A stretch of 21,618 nt of DNA. Origin: a virus. Location: the IMG/VR virus record IMGVR_UViG_3300030116_003403, positions 1-21,618 of that record; one strand, written 5' to 3'. Shown here in pieces: positions 937-13,545 of the stretch. How positions within the stretch are numbered: the stretch's first letter is position 1; every line of letters starts with the position of its first letter. Below the pieces are notes generated by a model. That model was not told where the DNA came from, made no database searches, and was given only the letters and a program-made list of their open reading frames with translations. Position numbers and translations under genes: made by a program.

Positions 937-1551
937 TTATTCTGCTTTAGAAGGATCGCCATTCTCTAATAGTCGGTTTAAATCCCAACCATTATCTTGT
1001 GCTTTATCCCAAGCTGTTTCAAGTTCTTCCTGAGTTGATTCATCTCTTGGAACAACTTGTAGGTTGTAAGAAGTTTTAGCTCCTACCATTTTACCTAGCT
1101 CAATATTCCAATCAAGTAGATTTCTGTATTTTCTATTTAAAGAAACACTTTGAATCTGCTGTTGAATTGTAAACTGATGAATTTTTAATGCTCTAACACA
1201 TTTATTGTCAAAGTCATAAACGCTCCAGTTCATGCAAAGCTGTGGTTTTCTTGGTGGCTTTGGGCTTTCGTCTGAGTATGTGTTTACAGCCCTTTGATAT
1301 TCTCCTCCTAATTCTTTTAGGATTTCATTATCAGTTGGCTCTTCAATAAATCTGAATGGCTTTTGCTTATCAGTAGTTATGTGAATACCCCATACTTCAA
1401 AAAAGCAAAGTGGGTCTTTATGTAAGAAAGCAAACTCTGCTGGTTTTTTCGGGTCGATTTCACCAGGATTCATGTAAATACTTGTGCCTAAACCATCTTC
1501 TTGGTTCTCGGCTTTTTCTACACGCTCTAAAAAGGAAGCTGGAAATTTCAT
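937..1551 (-). CDS. Putative phage single-stranded DNA-binding protein
   Basis: This 204-aa protein has a middle section NWSVYDFDNKCVRALKIHQF (residues about 107-126) followed by TIQQQIQSV, a helix, DWNIELGKMVGAKTSYNLQVV and a charged, mildly acidic tail. That order of a W-x-V-Y-D strand, an 'ALKIHQFT' strand, a helix, 'DWNIE' and '..YNLQVVPRDE' resembles phage OB-fold ssDNA-binding proteins of the gp32-like or unclassified phage SSB type, judged from memory and not by search. The N-terminus names no known motif. The gene is transcribed divergently from the primase-helicase at 1710 through a shared 158-bp control region, which fits a replication role. Homology to a nucleotide-binding protein of another sort cannot be excluded. 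Confidence 0.5.
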   Translation of the reverse strand: MKFPASFLERVEKAENQEDGLGTSIYMNPGEIDPKKPAEFAFLHKDPLCFFEVWGIHITTDKQKPFRFIEEPTDNEILKELGGEYQRAVNTYSDESPKPPRKPQLCMNWSVYDFDNKCVRALKIHQFTIQQQIQSVSLNRKYRNLLDWNIELGKMVGAKTSYNLQVVPRDESTQEELETAWDKAQDNGWDLNRLLENGDPSKAE

Positions 1552-1709: not shown

Positions 1710-3833
1710 ATGAACATTACTGATTTCGTCAATACCCTACCAAAGGACTTGGTTTATGCTCCTATTTACATAAAAGGAGCAACTATGAAATCTGGTAGAA
1801 AAGCTACTGGTAAAAATCCTTTTGAAGAAAGTTGGGAAAGAGCTTTTGATAGAGATGATTTAAAACATGCAATACAAAAAAATCCTGATCTACAAGCTGT
1901 TGGTCTTTATACAGGAATTAGAGGCAAGGGAATTGTTATTCTCGATATTGATAAAAACCATGCTCAGTTAAAAAAACGTTGGTCTGAAACCCTCGTAAAT
2001 GCTCCTAAAATTACTTCTACTAAAAAAGATGCTGCAAAGTACCTGTTTACCGTTCCACAAGAGTTATGGGGTGAGGTAAAGGGTCATGGGCTTAGAAAAG
2101 AAGATGGTGGTGATTACGAAATACTTTGGGGTCGTAGACAAGGTGTTATTTTTGGTGCTTATCCAGGTGGTCATAGTTCAGAAGCTGGTGAATATAGATT
2201 AAAAGGTGATCTTTCAAAAATACCTGTAGCACCTGCTTGGCTAATTGCAGAGATGAAAGCACCTGCAAAGCCAGTACAAAATAAAAAAGATTTAGATTTC
2301 AGCGATAGAACAGAAGATGAAATAGCTCAAATTATTCATGAATGTCTTTCTGTTATTTCTCATCAAGGTATTGGCAGTAGAGATCATTGGTTAAGAGTTG
2401 GAATGGCTATCAACTCTGCTTTACCAAATGATATGGGTTTAGCTTTATGGTCATTCTGGTCACAACAAGACCCTGATTATGCAGATGAATGGGAAGAAGC
2501 TGGAGATCATCATACTCCTTGTACTGAAACTTGGTATTCATTTAAAAATGGTGGTGTTGGTTTAGGTACTTTAATCTGGTTAGCAGATAGAGAAGATCCT
2601 GAAAGGCATAGATTTTCTAAAGAAAGCAAGAAAATTGTTAAAGATGCTGAAGATAAAAAAGTTCAAGAAATTAGAACTTCAACTCTTGATTTTAAAGAAG
2701 TCATAAAACGTGCCAAAAATATTCTTGATCTTGATAACCCTGCTGAAATGAATTACAAGTTAAATACTTTGGCATTAAAAGCTGGTTATAGAGATCAATC
2801 TTCTTTAGAAAAAATTATTGTCGATCAAATTCAATATGAAAGCCAAAAAGGTATTATGAGCCTTGAAGAGCTTTACGATTTGGATATAAAAAGACAATAT
2901 TTAATTCCTGATGTTTTACCAACACCTTCTGTTGTTTTGATATATGGAGCAGGTGGTGATGGTAAGTCTATAAGTGCTTGGACTATGGCAAAACATATAG
3001 CTACAGGTAGTCCATTTTATGTAAGAGAAAATTTAGTTCCTGTTGAAAAAGGTCCAATTCTTTTACTAAATGGAGATCAACCTTTAACTCAGCTAAAAGA
3101 GCAACTTGAAGAAGTTGATTTTCCTGTCAATACAAACACTAAAATTCTTACTGATTGGCAATTACAAAGGTATGCTCAATTTATCAAACTGATGAATGAC
3201 CATGAACCTAAATTAGTTGTGATTGATTCTTTGATTGGCTGTAGCGGTGGAAGAGCATTTGATGAAAATAAATCAGATTTTGCACAACCTCTTTATTGGC
3301 TAACTAGAAATAATGGTGTGCTTTTCCCTTCTACAACAATCCTTATAATTCATCACGCAAATAAGAATGGTGGTTTTAGAGGAACATCTGCTATTAGAGA
3401 TGCTGTTGATGAAGTATGGGCATTAAAAAAACCTACCGAAGAACAAGTTGGGCAAATTGGTCGTTCCAGTAGACTTATTTCTATTGAAAAATCTAGGTCT
3501 GGAAGAATGGGAACTCAGCTAATTATGAAAATGTCTGAGGATCTTACTTTTTCATTAGAAGATTTCACACCTGAAGTTGCTATGGGTGCAAATTCTCCTA
3601 CTAGCGTTAGTGATCGTGTTTTACAAAAGTTAAGAACTGTTCACCCTGAAGCACGCACCACAAATGAATTGATTAATGATCCTTTGCTTGATGGTAAACC
3701 TGCTGCTATAAGAAAATCGCTCCAGAGATTATTAAAAAGAGGATTAATTGAAGTAAGGGAAAGAAATTCTTACCTTTCTTATAAAGCAGTCCTCGTGCGT
3801 GGAGAGGGTGCAATAAGTGTCCCATCTAGCTAA
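1710..3833 (+). CDS. PrimPol-helicase replication protein (primase/polymerase, PriCT-like, RepA-type AAA ATPase)
   Basis: This 707-aa replication initiator is probably bifunctional. Residues about 10-185 match the bifunctional DNA primase/polymerase N-terminal fold: VGLYTG followed by ILDID with the metal-binding pair D79/D81, a candidate catalytic stretch near GDYEILWG (134-141), and the end PVAPAWLIAEM. Residues about 200-293 look like a PriCT-2 domain (DHWLRVGMAINSALP ... LALWSFWSQ ... ETWYSF). Residues about 400-615 form a RecA-fold ATPase of the RepA/AAA_25 type, with Walker A GAGGDGKS (413-420), Walker B LVVIDSL (D506) and a His-His pair at 548-549. Residues about 635-695 look like a winged helix that could bind DNA. 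Such multidomain proteins are typical of plasmids, satellites and some phages. The 3' end overlaps the first site of the dyad array at 3817-3990, suggesting that the protein or its neighbour acts there. Confidence 0.85.
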   Translation: MNITDFVNTLPKDLVYAPIYIKGATMKSGRKATGKNPFEESWERAFDRDDLKHAIQKNPDLQAVGLYTGIRGKGIVILDIDKNHAQLKKRWSETLVNAPKITSTKKDAAKYLFTVPQELWGEVKGHGLRKEDGGDYEILWGRRQGVIFGAYPGGHSSEAGEYRLKGDLSKIPVAPAWLIAEMKAPAKPVQNKKDLDFSDRTEDEIAQIIHECLSVISHQGIGSRDHWLRVGMAINSALPNDMGLALWSFWSQQDPDYADEWEEAGDHHTPCTETWYSFKNGGVGLGTLIWLADREDPERHRFSKESKKIVKDAEDKKVQEIRTSTLDFKEVIKRAKNILDLDNPAEMNYKLNTLALKAGYRDQSSLEKIIVDQIQYESQKGIMSLEELYDLDIKRQYLIPDVLPTPSVVLIYGAGGDGKSISAWTMAKHIATGSPFYVRENLVPVEKGPILLLNGDQPLTQLKEQLEEVDFPVNTNTKILTDWQLQRYAQFIKLMNDHEPKLVVIDSLIGCSGGRAFDENKSDFAQPLYWLTRNNGVLFPSTTILIIHHANKNGGFRGTSAIRDAVDEVWALKKPTEEQVGQIGRSSRLISIEKSRSGRMGTQLIMKMSEDLTFSLEDFTPEVAMGANSPTSVSDRVLQKLRTVHPEARTTNELINDPLLDGKPAAIRKSLQRLLKRGLIEVRERNSYLSYKAVLVRGEGAISVPSS

Positions 3834-3990
3834 ATCGTAGTCATACCAATGTGTTTACTATGGGACACTACCATGAGACACTTAAGATGTGTCCCATCAA
3901 GTTAAATTCAATGGGACACTTTTATGTGTCCTATACATGTGTCCCATACCAAATCGCTGTTGTGGAACGTGATTTCACGAAATGGGACAT
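3817..3990. repeat. Eight-site dyad-symmetric 9-bp repeat array (candidate iteron origin or operator)
   Basis: The 9-mer ATGGGACAC occurs eight times in 174 bp, with at most one mismatch: 3817-3825 (reverse), 3860-3868 (forward), 3873-3881 (forward, ATGAGACAC), 3889-3897 (reverse), 3911-3919 (forward), 3926-3934 (reverse, GTGTCCTAT), 3939-3947 (reverse) and 3982-3990 (forward, ATGGGACAT). The site centres pair symmetrically about 3903.5: 3821/3986, 3864/3943 and 3877/3930 all sum to 7807, and 3893/3915 sum to 7808. The array follows a replication protein and precedes a ribbon-helix-helix-like gene, as expected for an iteron origin, a copy-control operator or both. A weaker partial copy (TGAGACAC) lies at 4378-4385. 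Confidence 0.85.
3968..3979. promoter_or_regulatory. Short palindrome CGTGA-TT-TCACG inside the array
   Basis: Perfect 5-bp arms CGTGA and TCACG flank a TT centre, between the seventh and eighth repeat sites. It differs in sequence from the ATGGGACAC sites, so it may bind a second protein such as a phage repressor or a host factor. Confidence 0.3.
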
Positions 3991-4003
3991 CTACAGCCAC
4001 TCT

Positions 4004-4012
4004 CCCCAGGGG
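4004..4012. promoter_or_regulatory. Perfect GC palindrome CCCC-A-GGGG
   Basis: A nine-base perfect palindrome lies in very AT-rich surroundings between the dyad array and the promoter at 4016. Its GC content stands out locally. Just to its left, CTCTCC (4000-4005) mirrors GGAGAG (3801-3806) across the array centre to within one base. Confidence 0.3.
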
Positions 4013-4015
4013 TTG

Positions 4016-4044
4016 TTGACGAATTTATCGTATTAAAGTATCAT
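4016..4044 (+). promoter_or_regulatory. Sigma70-like promoter for the ribbon-helix-helix-like gene
   Basis: TTGACG (4016-4021) and TATCAT (4039-4044) are spaced by exactly 17 nt. The expected start near 4051 gives a very short leader of about 12 nt to the ATG at 4063. This supports that ATG over an upstream in-frame ATG at 3982 that lies inside the repeat array. Confidence 0.55.
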
Positions 4045-4338: not shown

Positions 4339-4417
4339 TTTCAGATGGTATCCGTCATTATAAAATTATTAATGGTGTGAGACACTGGTTATCTTATCCT
4401 CCTTCTAACTACAAAAA

Positions 4418-4699
4418 ATGAGCGATTCTTTAAAACTACGCAGATTAAAAGAAATCAGACGTAAAGATTTAGAAAAAAATCTTTTAGATATAGAGTTAAA
4501 AGGTTACGACCACTATATTTTTATCAACGAAAGGAACAAAGCTCAAGTCGTTTCAAAACAAGGAGGTTGGGTTACAGAGCATATTCGTACGGCAATTTTA
4601 AAATTTAATTTTGAAGTTGATAAAACTGAAAGCATGCTTGTAAAAGATTTTGAAAAGAAATACCTTACTGAATACGAAAGAATTTTTTTAAAGGATTAG
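4418..4699 (+). CDS. Hypothetical protein, 93 aa
   Basis: A soluble, strongly charged product (many K, R, E, D). Residues 1-25 are predicted helical (MSDSLKLRRLKEIRRKDLEK), followed by a short strand region YDHYIFINERNKAQVVSKQG, then further helices. No Shine-Dalgarno sequence precedes the ATG. It follows the ribbon-helix-helix-like gene on the same strand after 79 nt. Its last 35 nt overlap the 3' end of the opposing gene at 4665-4940. I do not recognise a family. A role in replication control is suggested only by position. Confidence 0.55.
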   Translation: MSDSLKLRRLKEIRRKDLEKNLLDIELKGYDHYIFINERNKAQVVSKQGGWVTEHIRTAILKFNFEVDKTESMLVKDFEKKYLTEYERIFLKD

Positions 4700-9006: not shown

Positions 9007-12000
9007 TTACCCTGCTTCGAGGGCTGTGACTTTTGCTGATAGTTCTTTTATTGCGTTGACAAGAACAGGTATTAATCTTGCATATCTTAAACCATAATGT
9101 TTTTCATCATCTGACTTATCTATAAATAAACAATCATTTTCAGATGAACCATATCCGTTAGCTTTTTCTACTGTTTCAACTTCCTGTGCAATTAATCCAA
9201 TTTCTGTTTTATTGCTTTTCTTTGAACCATCAGGAGTAACACTTAAATCATTACTATAGTTAGATCTCATATCCCATTTATATGTTACTGGTCTAAGAGA
9301 ATTTATAATATCAAGACCCTTTGTAAAATCAGCTATATCTGCTTTATCTCTTTCATCAGAAGTTACAGTCCAATCAACTTTTATATGTGCATTTGTAATA
9401 TTACTATTACCTAAAACAATTCTATTGCTGTGAGTTGTATGATTACCGTTAGGAGAACCTGTGATTCCAGCTTCATAACCTAAGAATAAATTATTGCTTC
9501 CCGTTGTTAGATTTTGACCACTATTATAACCAATCAAGGTATTATAATTACCTGAAGTAGCACTTTCTCCAGATTGAGAGCCACAACCTGTATTACCTCC
9601 TCCAGTACCATTTTTAAAAGATTCATTTCCTATATATGTGTTATGTGATGATGTAGTGTTGCTGGCTCCAGCTTCTCTACCTACAGCAGTATTTTGATCT
9701 CCAGTTGTGCTTGCACTTAATGCACTTTTTCCTACTGCTACGTTATTTGTTCCAGTAGTGTTAGAGTTCATACAACTAGCACCCACCGCAGTATTTTCTC
9801 CACTTGTTGTGTTTTCTAAAGCGGTATGACCAACAGCGGTATTATTGTTTGCTGTAGTGGCTTTATATAATGAAAAACTACCTATAGAAACGTTAGATGC
9901 ACCTGTGGTAATGTCTGTTGCAGCTTCATATCCAACAGCAGTATTTCTATTTCCAGTGGTATTTGCAGTTAAAGCATTATAGCCCACAGCAGTTAGATAA
10001 ATTCCAGATGTGCTAAGTCTTAAAGCTTTATAACCTACAGCTGTAAGACCATCTTCAGTCACATTATCTGCCAACGCATTAAATCCTATAGCTACGTTAT
10101 TACCTCCAGATGTGTTATCTTGCATAGAATCTTTTCCAATAGACACGTTGTTATCACCTGTAGTACTTGTTAAAAATGCACCCTTACCCACAGCGGTATT
10201 ACCTACTCCAGTTGTGACATTCATTGCACAATCAGTACCAACAGCAGTATTATTATCTGCTGTTGTATTGTTCAATAATGCTCTTGAACCAACTGCTGTA
10301 TTATATTGTCCATTCGTATTTTCATACAAACAATTCATACCAACGGCTGTATTTTGACTACCTGTAGAGTTAGTTAAAGCTTGACGGCCTATTGCTGTAT
10401 TTCTTTCACCTGATACGTTAGCCTCTAATGCTTTAAATCCTAAAGCACTGTTATATAGTCCAGTTGTATTTTCTTCCATTGCTGAATAGCCAACCGCTGT
10501 ATTTTCATTAGCTGTAGTAGCGGATTTTAAAGAAAGTGCACCTACAGCTACATTATTATTTCCTGTGGTATTTGCATATAAGGCTAAAGACCCTAACCCA
10601 GTGTTACTAGAACCAGTTGTGTTAAATACCAAAGCATTATCGCCCATTGCAGTATTATCATCTCCAGTGGTATTAGCAGCTAAAGCTGAATTACCAACAC
10701 CAGTATTGTCTTCACCTGATGTATTAACAGTTAAAGCTTGATTTCCAACTGCTACATTATAATTTGCTGTATTTTCTTTTAAAGCATTAACACCAACAGC
10801 CGTATTTGAATGTCCAGTTGTGTTTGCATTAAGAGCCAAATCTCCAACAGCAGTATTGTTACTTGCAGTTGTATTAAAACCTAAAGATCCTCTACCTATA
10901 GCAACGTTAGATGCACCTGTGGTATTTGCTGTTAAAGCATTATGACCAACTGCTGTGTTGTCAGATCCTGTAGTGTTAGCATCTAGAGAATAATTACCAA
11001 CGGAAACATTTTTTGCACCAGAAGTATTTGAAAATAAAGAAGTTCTACCTATAGCTACATTATTTGCTCCAGTTGTATTTGTGTATAACGCACTAAGTCC
11101 AACTGCTGTGTTGTCTGATCCTGTAGTAGTTCCAGACATAGCACCTTGTCCAACTGCTGTGTTGTTATTAGCTGTGGTTGCTGCATCTAAGGTTAAAGAT
11201 CCTACCGCTACATTATTTGCTCCAGTTGTGTTTACATCTAATGCTTTATAGCCTACAGCAGTATTATTATCGGCTGTGGTGTTTGAACCCAAAGCACCCA
11301 TACCGATTGCAGTAAGGTAGTTACCTGTTGTACTAGCATCTAAAGCTAAAGCTCCTACAGCTACGTTTGAACCTCCAGTTGTGTTTGCTGTTAAAGCGTT
11401 TTGACCTACAGCAGTGTTGTTTGATGCAGTTGTATTAGCATCTAAGGCTTTATCACCTATAGCTACGTTGTTATTTCCAGTTGTGTTTGCAAATAAAGCA
11501 CCTTTACCAACAGCAGTGTTTTCTGCACCTGTTGTATTGGCATCCATAGTTCTCCACCCAACAGACGTATTGTTATCTGCTGTAGTAGCTTGTCTTAAAG
11601 CTTGATAACCAACAGCAGTGTTTTGTGCTCCTGATGAATTATTTGATAAAGAATATGCACCAAAACCAGAGTTTTGTGCTCCTGTAGTAACTTTTAAAGC
11701 TGAATAACCAAAAGCAGAACAAGTGCTAGATGTAGTAATTGATTGAAGAGCTAAAGAACCTACGGCTGTGTTCTGAGTTCCAGTTGTGTTTGCTGCTAAT
11801 GAGTTGTAACCTACAGCCGTATTGTTATCGGCAGTAGTATTTGCATATAAAGCAACTCTACCAAAAGCAGTATTGTTACTTCCTGTTGAATTTGAATATA
11901 AAGCACTTGAACCAAAAGCAGAGTTAAAACTTCCAGTTGTTGTTGTTGTTAAAGATGTCTTACCAACAGCAGTATTCTGTGTTCCAGTTGTGTTTGCTGT

Positions 12001-13545
12001 TAAAGATTGATAACCTACAGCAGTGTTGTTATCAGCTGTAGTGTTGGCGTTTAATGCTGTTTGACCTACTGCAACATTCTGCGTTCCAGTTGTATTGTAA
12101 AGCATTGCTTGGTGTCCAACCGCAACATTATTTGAAGCTGTTGTATTTGAATCTAATGCTTGCATTCCAATAGCTACGTTACTTGCACCTGTTGAGTTAT
12201 TATTAAGAGCATTTAAACCAAGACCAGTATTACCATCGGCGGTTGTAGTTTCTTTACCTGCATTTCTACCAATAAATGTATTATTATCTCCTGTTGTTAA
12301 TGCTTTTCCAGCCGAAAGTCCAACGGCAGTGTTCTTTACTCCAGAAGTTAAAGCTGTTAATGCTTCTTTACCGATAGCAGTATTTTCTCCACCAGTAACA
12401 GCAGCATCTAAAGCACTTTCTCCAAGAACAGTGTTACCAGAAACAGAGTTTGCACCTTTACCAATATTTACGCTGTTTATACTTGCATCAACAGTAAACG
12501 TAGCCTTTCCTGTACTGTCTATTCTTAATCTTTCAGTAGGAGAAGAAGCACCATCAGCCGTTGTGCTAAATACCAAACGACCTGGCATATCATTAGCTCC
12601 AGGTGTGCCATCTACTTCACCAGCTATTTGTGCTCCTACTGTTTCAAGGTCAACTCCATCGCCCCCAGCAAAACGAATATGACCCATAGCGTCATCTTCT
12701 AAAAGAATACCTGATGCACTTCCTCTAGCGTGTCCTAAAGCAAGAGTTCCTGATGGTCCTGTAGAATTTACAGTGCTATAAAAAGCAGCAGATATGTTAC
12801 CCGAAGTATGTTCAACTTGTAGTAACGAGGCTGCACTTGATGCGACATCAACACTCGTACTCGATCCAATAAGCAATCGTTGTGAACTATCAACTCTTAG
12901 GGCTTCACTGCCACCAGTCTCAACAGAAACAGTATCAGCAGCAGGGAATCTTACAGCAGTATTAGTATCTCCAGAATGAATTATCTTATCTGCAATAGTT
13001 AAATCACTTGTAGATGTTATAGCTCCTGTTACAGCTAACGTACCAACAACACTTACTCCTGTATCAGCAGTTAATCTTGTTGTTCCTCCAGCAGCTAGAC
13101 TAACAGTATTCGTTCCACCAAATATTCCGCTATCGCTATCTCCAAAGTTTATAGCAGGTGCAGAATTAGAACCATTAGGCATGGTCAATACACCTGTTAA
13201 AGTACTACCAGCTTTTGCTACATAGTTAGTATTTGATGTGGTACGTTCTGCAACTGTTACCGCATTTAAACCAGCAGGGGTTACAACTCTATTTGTAGCT
13301 GTTCCAGTTGTTGTCTCACTATTAGTTGCTAATTCAGATATACCCGAAACTGTAGTTGTAGCAGTGGGTGTTGATAAACTTCCTGGGCCAAATATTTTTA
13401 CGATACTATTATCACTGGCTCGCATAAAGCCACCGATGCTATTTATATTTGCGTTAAGTGCTATCTCACCTACAGCAGGTAAATCAGATGTACTAGGAGT
13501 ACTATCCTGTACAACACTATTCTTTAATTTAATTTGAATTGCCAT
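9007..13545 (-). CDS. Giant tail fibre with YadA-head-like repeats and C-terminal S74 self-cleaving chaperone
   Basis: The 1512-aa protein has an N-terminal virion-attachment-like region (MAIQIKLKNSVVQDSTPSTS, about residues 1-110), a linker with fibre repeats (about 110-365), about 59 copies of a 17-residue repeat with core NTAVGxxALxxNTTGxxN (about 370-1365), and a C-terminal Peptidase_S74 domain beginning TSDERDKADI. The dyad expected in that domain is S1396 and K1401 (SDERDK). The domain continues with LRPVTYKW and IGLIAQEVE, and ends in a coiled helix (AIKELSAKVTALEAG). In this family the domain trimerises the fibre, then cuts itself off just before the Ser. The repeat resembles the left-handed beta-roll head of YadA-type adhesins (Hep_Hag), so the fibre is probably a long trimeric rod that binds the host. 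AAGG lies 6 nt upstream of the ATG. Confidence 0.88.
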   Translation of the reverse strand: MAIQIKLKNSVVQDSTPSTSDLPAVGEIALNANINSIGGFMRASDNSIVKIFGPGSLSTPTATTTVSGISELATNSETTTGTATNRVVTPAGLNAVTVAERTTSNTNYVAKAGSTLTGVLTMPNGSNSAPAINFGDSDSGIFGGTNTVSLAAGGTTRLTADTGVSVVGTLAVTGAITSTSDLTIADKIIHSGDTNTAVRFPAADTVSVETGGSEALRVDSSQRLLIGSSTSVDVASSAASLLQVEHTSGNISAAFYSTVNSTGPSGTLALGHARGSASGILLEDDAMGHIRFAGGDGVDLETVGAQIAGEVDGTPGANDMPGRLVFSTTADGASSPTERLRIDSTGKATFTVDASINSVNIGKGANSVSGNTVLGESALDAAVTGGENTAIGKEALTALTSGVKNTAVGLSAGKALTTGDNNTFIGRNAGKETTTADGNTGLGLNALNNNSTGASNVAIGMQALDSNTTASNNVAVGHQAMLYNTTGTQNVAVGQTALNANTTADNNTAVGYQSLTANTTGTQNTAVGKTSLTTTTTGSFNSAFGSSALYSNSTGSNNTAFGRVALYANTTADNNTAVGYNSLAANTTGTQNTAVGSLALQSITTSSTCSAFGYSALKVTTGAQNSGFGAYSLSNNSSGAQNTAVGYQALRQATTADNNTSVGWRTMDANTTGAENTAVGKGALFANTTGNNNVAIGDKALDANTTASNNTAVGQNALTANTTGGSNVAVGALALDASTTGNYLTAIGMGALGSNTTADNNTAVGYKALDVNTTGANNVAVGSLTLDAATTANNNTAVGQGAMSGTTTGSDNTAVGLSALYTNTTGANNVAIGRTSLFSNTSGAKNVSVGNYSLDANTTGSDNTAVGHNALTANTTGASNVAIGRGSLGFNTTASNNTAVGDLALNANTTGHSNTAVGVNALKENTANYNVAVGNQALTVNTSGEDNTGVGNSALAANTTGDDNTAMGDNALVFNTTGSSNTGLGSLALYANTTGNNNVAVGALSLKSATTANENTAVGYSAMEENTTGLYNSALGFKALEANVSGERNTAIGRQALTNSTGSQNTAVGMNCLYENTNGQYNTAVGSRALLNNTTADNNTAVGTDCAMNVTTGVGNTAVGKGAFLTSTTGDNNVSIGKDSMQDNTSGGNNVAIGFNALADNVTEDGLTAVGYKALRLSTSGIYLTAVGYNALTANTTGNRNTAVGYEAATDITTGASNVSIGSFSLYKATTANNNTAVGHTALENTTSGENTAVGASCMNSNTTGTNNVAVGKSALSASTTGDQNTAVGREAGASNTTSSHNTYIGNESFKNGTGGGNTGCGSQSGESATSGNYNTLIGYNSGQNLTTGSNNLFLGYEAGITGSPNGNHTTHSNRIVLGNSNITNAHIKVDWTVTSDERDKADIADFTKGLDIINSLRPVTYKWDMRSNYSNDLSVTPDGSKKSNKTEIGLIAQEVETVEKANGYGSSENDCLFIDKSDDEKHYGLRYARLIPVLVNAIKELSAKVTALEAG
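9450..12440. repeat. About 59 tandem 51-bp repeats within the fibre gene
   Basis: The coding period is 51 bp (17 residues), and about 59 units can be counted in the protein. Units differ from each other in sequence, while NTAVG, the AL pair and NTTG are well kept. A few units are 16 residues, for example the one ending ALKVTTGAQ. Near-identical neighbours suggest expansion by duplication, so the copy number may vary and the assembly of this section could be wrong. Confidence 0.9.

Follow-up and report, generated by a model that had tools for sequence, protein, structure and literature searches.

What could be the role of eight copies of a short word set out in mirror symmetry across the end of a phage PrimPol-helicase gene? 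This is the question raised by the window, that is, the whole stretch of 21,618 bases that was analysed, which makes up one IMG/VR record classed as linear and is probably a fragment. A search allowing at most one mismatch places eight ATGGGACAC-like sites at 3817-3990, in the order - + + - + - - + (Table 1). An earlier, sequence-only reading had counted the 9-mer eight times in these 174 bp; the eight sites are there, five of them as exact ATGGGACAC and three with one mismatch. It had also described the order of the sites as its own reverse complement, and recomputation gave the same result: the site centres sum to 7807, 7807, 7807 and 7808, with the axis at 3903.5 and a mirror that holds to within 1 bp. 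The motifs GGAGAG (3801-3806) and CTCTCC (4000-4005) that it had noted on either side are likewise present. Over the whole 21.6 kb, one-mismatch matches number 9 against 2.7 expected (the largest count in 100 shuffles of the window was 7), and 8 of these 9 lie inside the 174 bp. When the window's own gaps and orientations were shuffled, a full mirror arose in 41 of 20,000 trials. The array does adjoin the PrimPol-helicase gene, as had been proposed, but it is not simply next to it: the reading frame stops at 3833 with site 1 inside, so the array straddles the 3' end of the gene.

Table 1. Coordinates of the array, its flanking boxes and the PrimPol-helicase gene in the window
Feature	Position	Strand	Description
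PrimPol-helicase gene, 707 aa	1710..3833	+	Prim-Pol, PriCT_2, RecA/RepA-type AAA_25 helicase, C-terminal winged helix
C-terminal winged-helix domain, about residues 633-695	3606..3794	+	Proposed array binder; AlphaFold2 model, fold matches
Arg668 codon	3711..3713	+	Recognition-helix residue co-varying with the site word
Gln672 codon	3723..3725	+	One helical turn past 668; Glu in the TGCGACA clade
Left outer box	3791..3806	+	CCTCGTGCGTGGAGAG; inside PrimPol gene; family-wide CTCGCGCGgGGA box
Site 1	3817..3825	-	ATGGGACAC, exact; inside PrimPol gene
Site 2	3860..3868	+	ATGGGACAC, exact
Site 3	3873..3881	+	ATGAGACAC, 1 mismatch
Site 4	3889..3897	-	ATGGGACAC, exact; left half-array ends here
Dyad centre	3898..3910	.	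Axis 3903.5
Site 5	3911..3919	+	ATGGGACAC, exact; right half-array begins here
Site 6	3926..3934	-	ATAGGACAC, 1 mismatch
Site 7	3939..3947	-	ATGGGACAC, exact
Site 8	3982..3990	+	ATGGGACAT, 1 mismatch
Right outer box	4000..4012	-	Minus strand reads CCCCTGGGGAGAG

The 707-aa product of this gene gives Pfam matches to Prim-Pol (PF09250), PriCT_2 and AAA_25. Its 82-residue C-terminal stretch (residues 618-699) was predicted by AlphaFold2 to fold as a winged helix (mean pLDDT 81), with helices at positions 16-26, 34-38 and 47-60 of the stretch and a two-strand wing. The fold matches of this model are of the ArsR, MarR, MecI and Z-alpha types, with a plasmid centromere-binding protein among many others; the P4 origin-binding domain is absent among the fold matches listed, which excludes nothing. 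Profile comparison against PDB sequences gave no match for the whole 707-aa protein, and mostly weak matches to regulators for the winged helix. Winged helices usually touch bases through their third helix; in the model this helix carries residues 668 and 672, separated by one turn.

Is this arrangement particular to one record? We fetched 42 loci with a PrimPol about 80% identical. Among those that extend beyond the gene, alignment with the window recovers all eight positions with few exceptions; the final C of the window's word is an A in these relatives, a change shared by nearly all sites at once. While the array is kept in near relatives, the sequence following it varies. A search with the DNA pattern only, and thus blind to the protein, returned 63 loci; the same PrimPol is encoded in 32 of them, at 45-100% identity to one or other of two queries, and most have the same layout. 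Wider protein searches brought the set to 230 distinct proteins for which downstream DNA is available; an array can be recognised in about 200 of them, located at the 3' end of the PrimPol-RepA-type-helicase gene or just behind it, in metagenomic contigs of aquatic phages; nearly all of these arrays consist of two mirrored half-arrays. In many relatives the reading frame continues through the whole array, so this DNA is conserved in coding and non-coding contexts alike. The sequence-only reading had proposed examining relatives with the same genes for loss of the spacing or of the symmetry; this check was run, and its outcome does not refute the reading. In one locus (L072, 72-2624) an array and an Arg668 like those of the other relatives accompany a PrimPol whose ATPase part is strongly diverged, possibly as a result of domain exchange.

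In 11 near-complete relatives the main cluster of the array word is found at the PrimPol gene: four to eight exact copies occur within 300 bp, against maxima of two to six for shuffled words, while zero to ten copies are scattered elsewhere. Several near-complete relatives are contigs of 38-47 kb, and one of these, G030 (42.4 kb), encodes a terminase, portal, capsid and tail proteins and a family-A DNA polymerase, as read from the translations, and its upstream nuclease gene matches PD-(D/E)XK nucleases. The genome collection gave five matches, all metagenome-assembled. The relatives L182-L186 stand in metagenome-assembled bacterial bins of unrelated phyla; these are probably mis-binned phage contigs, so nothing sure can be drawn from them about hosts. 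The search for cultured relatives returned only weak partial matches in phages and plasmids. S-CBS4 and most of the other partial matches examined are without such an array, as is cyanophage S-2L, whose PrimPol has another helicase. In Vibrio phage 1.076.O, an isolated phage (MG592452), 9 of the 12 GGACA words of the locus fall within 200 bp (4342-4542), mostly as CGGACA, behind a DnaB/RepA-like helicase gene; this cluster, whose layout is not clearly mirrored, is a possible distant and culturable analogue.

Two further genes of the window can be mentioned here. Upstream of the PrimPol gene, a divergent gene of 204 aa (937-1551, minus strand) has no Pfam or PHROG match and resembles by eye the gene in the same place in G030 and in L109 (7415-7996); its product is perhaps a single-strand-binding protein. 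A 1512-aa protein (9007-13545, minus strand), made largely of short NNTAVG-type repeats, is probably, judged by eye, a tail fibre whose end is chaperone-like and self-cleaving.

The arrays follow a common plan, R-43/44-F-(13-F)-16-R, then the centre, then the mirror image. Variants either drop the optional site (28-29 bp in place of 13 + 16) or have steps of 18 and 10 bp, and some arrays have only 4-6 detected sites. The outer step is constant at 42-45 bp, partly since the detector looked for that step. In the 101 arrays that have at least six sites, a mirrored partner exists for 93% of the sites (49% when shuffled); 70 of the 101 are fully mirrored, against 1.3% of shuffles, and 31 are not. 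Complementarity across the axis reaches 87% in the sites and 36% in the flanking spacers, so the symmetry is one of sites and not that of a long hairpin. The distances from half to half cluster near 10, 21, 33, 44, 53, 65, 76, 90 and 99 bp, with almost none between, according to a period of about 11.1 bp (p <= 0.0002 by simulation, which holds on the distinct values alone). The half-arrays thus sit a near-integral number of helical turns apart. The L028 array (from 8111) shows one route to an altered half-to-half distance: through a duplication of 11 bp it has gained a ninth site, and its halves stand one helical turn further apart. Outside the outer sites, at 14-18 bp, there is in addition a mirrored CTCGCGCGgGGA box, on the left in 93 of 108 arrays and on the right in 94 of 108, for a chance expectation of 13% per flank. 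The left box doubles as coding sequence. The outer box does not follow the site word and is therefore probably read by something else; one guess is that these boxes (CTCGCGCGGGGA) are priming sites.

The site word itself varies across the family. TGGGACA is found in most arrays, and GGGGACA, TAGGACA, CTGGACA, GTGGACA, TTGGACA, CAGGACA and TGCGACA in others, each change hitting all the sites of an array in concert; as the sites were anchored on GACA, changes within this core would be missed. To relate these switches to the protein, a tree of 122 representatives was built on residues 1-630, which excludes the winged helix, and changes were placed on it by parsimony. Of the 29 branches with a motif switch, 18 also carry a change at residue 668, which has 25 changes in all over 242 branches (hypergeometric 1.8e-14, against 1.4e-5 for the next column, both p-values treating branches as exchangeable). 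Residue 668 came first of 599 variable columns in 60 of 60 re-runs, which covered three trees, including the primase part alone and the helicase part alone, and random tie-breaking. The correspondence is as follows: Arg668 goes with xGG, TGC and TAG words (79/81), Lys668 with GGG words (8/10), His, Gln or Thr668 only with xTG words (20/20), and Gly668 with CAG, AAG, GTG and CGG words (11). Glu672 in place of Gln accompanies TGC words (7/7), as a single event. Exceptions at 668 are the Arg retained in the TAGGACA clades, L212 and L221. The tree-based test did not include the most distant clade (L331 and others, TTTTGACAA); in plain mutual information over all members, that clade included, 668 did not stand out at each motif position, an effect of shared ancestry. 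Codon 668 is 106 bp upstream of site 1, so the co-variation is no effect of overlap.

Which protein reads the word? The sequence-only reading had named two candidates, the 707-aa protein and a 91-aa one; the candidate binder is the former, with whose winged helix the word co-varies, and nothing points to the latter. It is the PrimPol-helicase that tracks the word, so the array very probably serves to bind it; physical binding is very likely, with strong support from co-evolution. That the mirror is kept while the word and one residue change together makes the array very probably the place that the protein binds for starting copying. Taken as a whole, we are fairly confident that this is the binding array of the phage's own PrimPol-helicase and, most likely, its replication origin, its working as an origin being likely. 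The C-terminal winged helix would read each 7-9 bp site, and the four sites on each side, mirrored and in fixed register, would gather two helicase oligomers in opposite orientation. Two forks could then set off away from each other, on primers made by the fused PrimPol. Two face-to-face assemblies and a bidirectional start are plausible in view of the mirror and of the helical register. An origin with two facing initiator complexes was one of three readings offered earlier, and it emerges as the best supported of them through the link to the gene, the winged-helix co-variation and the register, whereas the start and its direction are inferred. The GC skew check that had been suggested for it gave no support: among 12 relatives there is no switch at the array, and by inspection the skew follows the coding strand. 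The array centre also lacks a classical unwinding element, since its AT content of 51.6%, compared with 49.8% for the gene, does not make it AT-rich.

The same array could be thought of as a cooperative operator, on which the PrimPol-helicase would control its own or the following gene while replication starts elsewhere. Mirrored multi-site operators exist, and a promoter-like match lies just after the array, at 4016-4044, although such matches are no commoner than in shuffles. However, the array lies inside the gene or at its distal end, some 2.1 kb away from the gene's start, the sequence that follows it differs in near relatives, and a register kept over up to nine turns with eight sites exceeds the needs of an operator. 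This second of the earlier readings is thus improbable as the main function, and is better retained as a possible second role.

Less probable still is that the signal would be the hairpin itself, extruded as a stem-loop or cruciform in the manner of pRN1. The single strand does fold better than its shuffles (z -5.1), and a stem-loop of 100 nt following the PrimPol gene is indispensable to pRN1 (PMC4234260); but only the short sites pair across the axis, sites such as GAGACA break the pairing, and the word co-varies with a protein residue. The third earlier reading, a resolution or telomere-like site, can be weighed with recombination and partition sites in general. Mirrored arrays outwardly resemble res sites or centromeres, and the centromere-binding protein among the fold matches goes in the same direction. 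The co-evolving partner is, however, a replication protein; serine recombinases were found in 0 of 16 records (fragments, which cannot prove absence), a tyrosine recombinase match in only 1 of the 16, and no match to ParA-type AAA_31 in any. We regard this reading as largely refuted and its probability as very slight.

How does the proposed binding array and origin compare with known systems? SaPI-type origins have an AT-rich region flanked by repeats; here, the centre is without AT-richness, and a strict mirror in helical register is found, in phages. Initiators whose origin lies at the end of the gene encoding them are already known. SaPI Rep helicases bind, through their C-terminal domain, iterons directly downstream of their own gene, apparently as two hexamers, and SaPI Rep with its origin and SCCmec Cch2 share with the present system an initiator helicase, a C-terminal DNA-binding domain and short repeats directly downstream (PMC7581432). 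The likeness extends to a C-terminal domain reading the repeats, which here is a predicted winged helix whose reading of the sites is supported by co-variation only. The helicases differ: SaPIBov1 Rep and SaPI5 Rep are related to DUF927 and to Primase_Cterm/D5 helicases, respectively, while here an AAA_25 helicase goes with a PrimPol (PMC7581432). P4 alpha also combines, in one protein, primase and helicase parts with a winged helix for binding origin repeats (PMC4234260), but its primase is of the bacterial TOPRIM type, in contrast to the archaeo-eukaryotic Prim-Pol (PF09250) and RecA-type helicase found here. ORF904 of pRN1 is close in having Prim-Pol, helicase and C-terminal winged helix, with an essential sequence behind the gene (PMC4234260). 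Its helicase belongs to SF3, unlike the RecA-type AAA_25, and the sequence is one 100-nt stem-loop with no iterons per its authors (PMC4234260), whereas the spacers here are 36% complementary, despite the folding score given above. As each of the SaPI, P4 and pRN1 systems has defining features that are missing here, the array is not filed under any of them, though it would work like them.

In its symmetry, the array recalls Site II of the polyomavirus core origin, where palindromic short sites are bound by the initiator helicase and double hexamers form (PMC3930596), and it is by this likeness too that mirror and register suggest two assemblies facing each other. The protein is unrelated, however, and Site II has four pentanucleotides in place of six to eight sites in two spaced halves. 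Classical plasmid iterons are direct repeats, unlike the orientation mirrored throughout that is seen here. In domain make-up, the 707-aa protein is akin to the PrimQH-type primases of mobile elements, which have Prim-Pol, PriCT, a P-loop ATPase (including the RepA family) and a winged helix (PMC5862659); the extracts consulted contain no passage on such an array. A strict mirrored and register-bound layout with PrimPol and RecA-type helicase, with repeated residue-word switches, was not found in the open-access literature searched, which is weak evidence.

A basic question is how a single origin comes to hold two helicases pointing in opposite directions, and the natural variation over about 200 arrays amounts to ready-made experiments on spacing, symmetry and specificity. 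The protein-DNA code is here unusually readable: the residue-to-base correspondence predicts single changes that would switch origin specificity, and this can be tested with a small domain and short duplexes. The array also points to candidate origins in metagenomic phages with this PrimPol. The most general form of the proposal, which we hold to be evenly balanced between right and wrong, is that in a large and as yet uncultured phage lineage the origin layout would encode the face-to-face loading of two self-loading RecA-type PrimPol-helicases, through mirrored half-sites in strict register one to nine turns apart, and that one or two winged-helix residues would form a simple code by which origin specificity may have been switched repeatedly.
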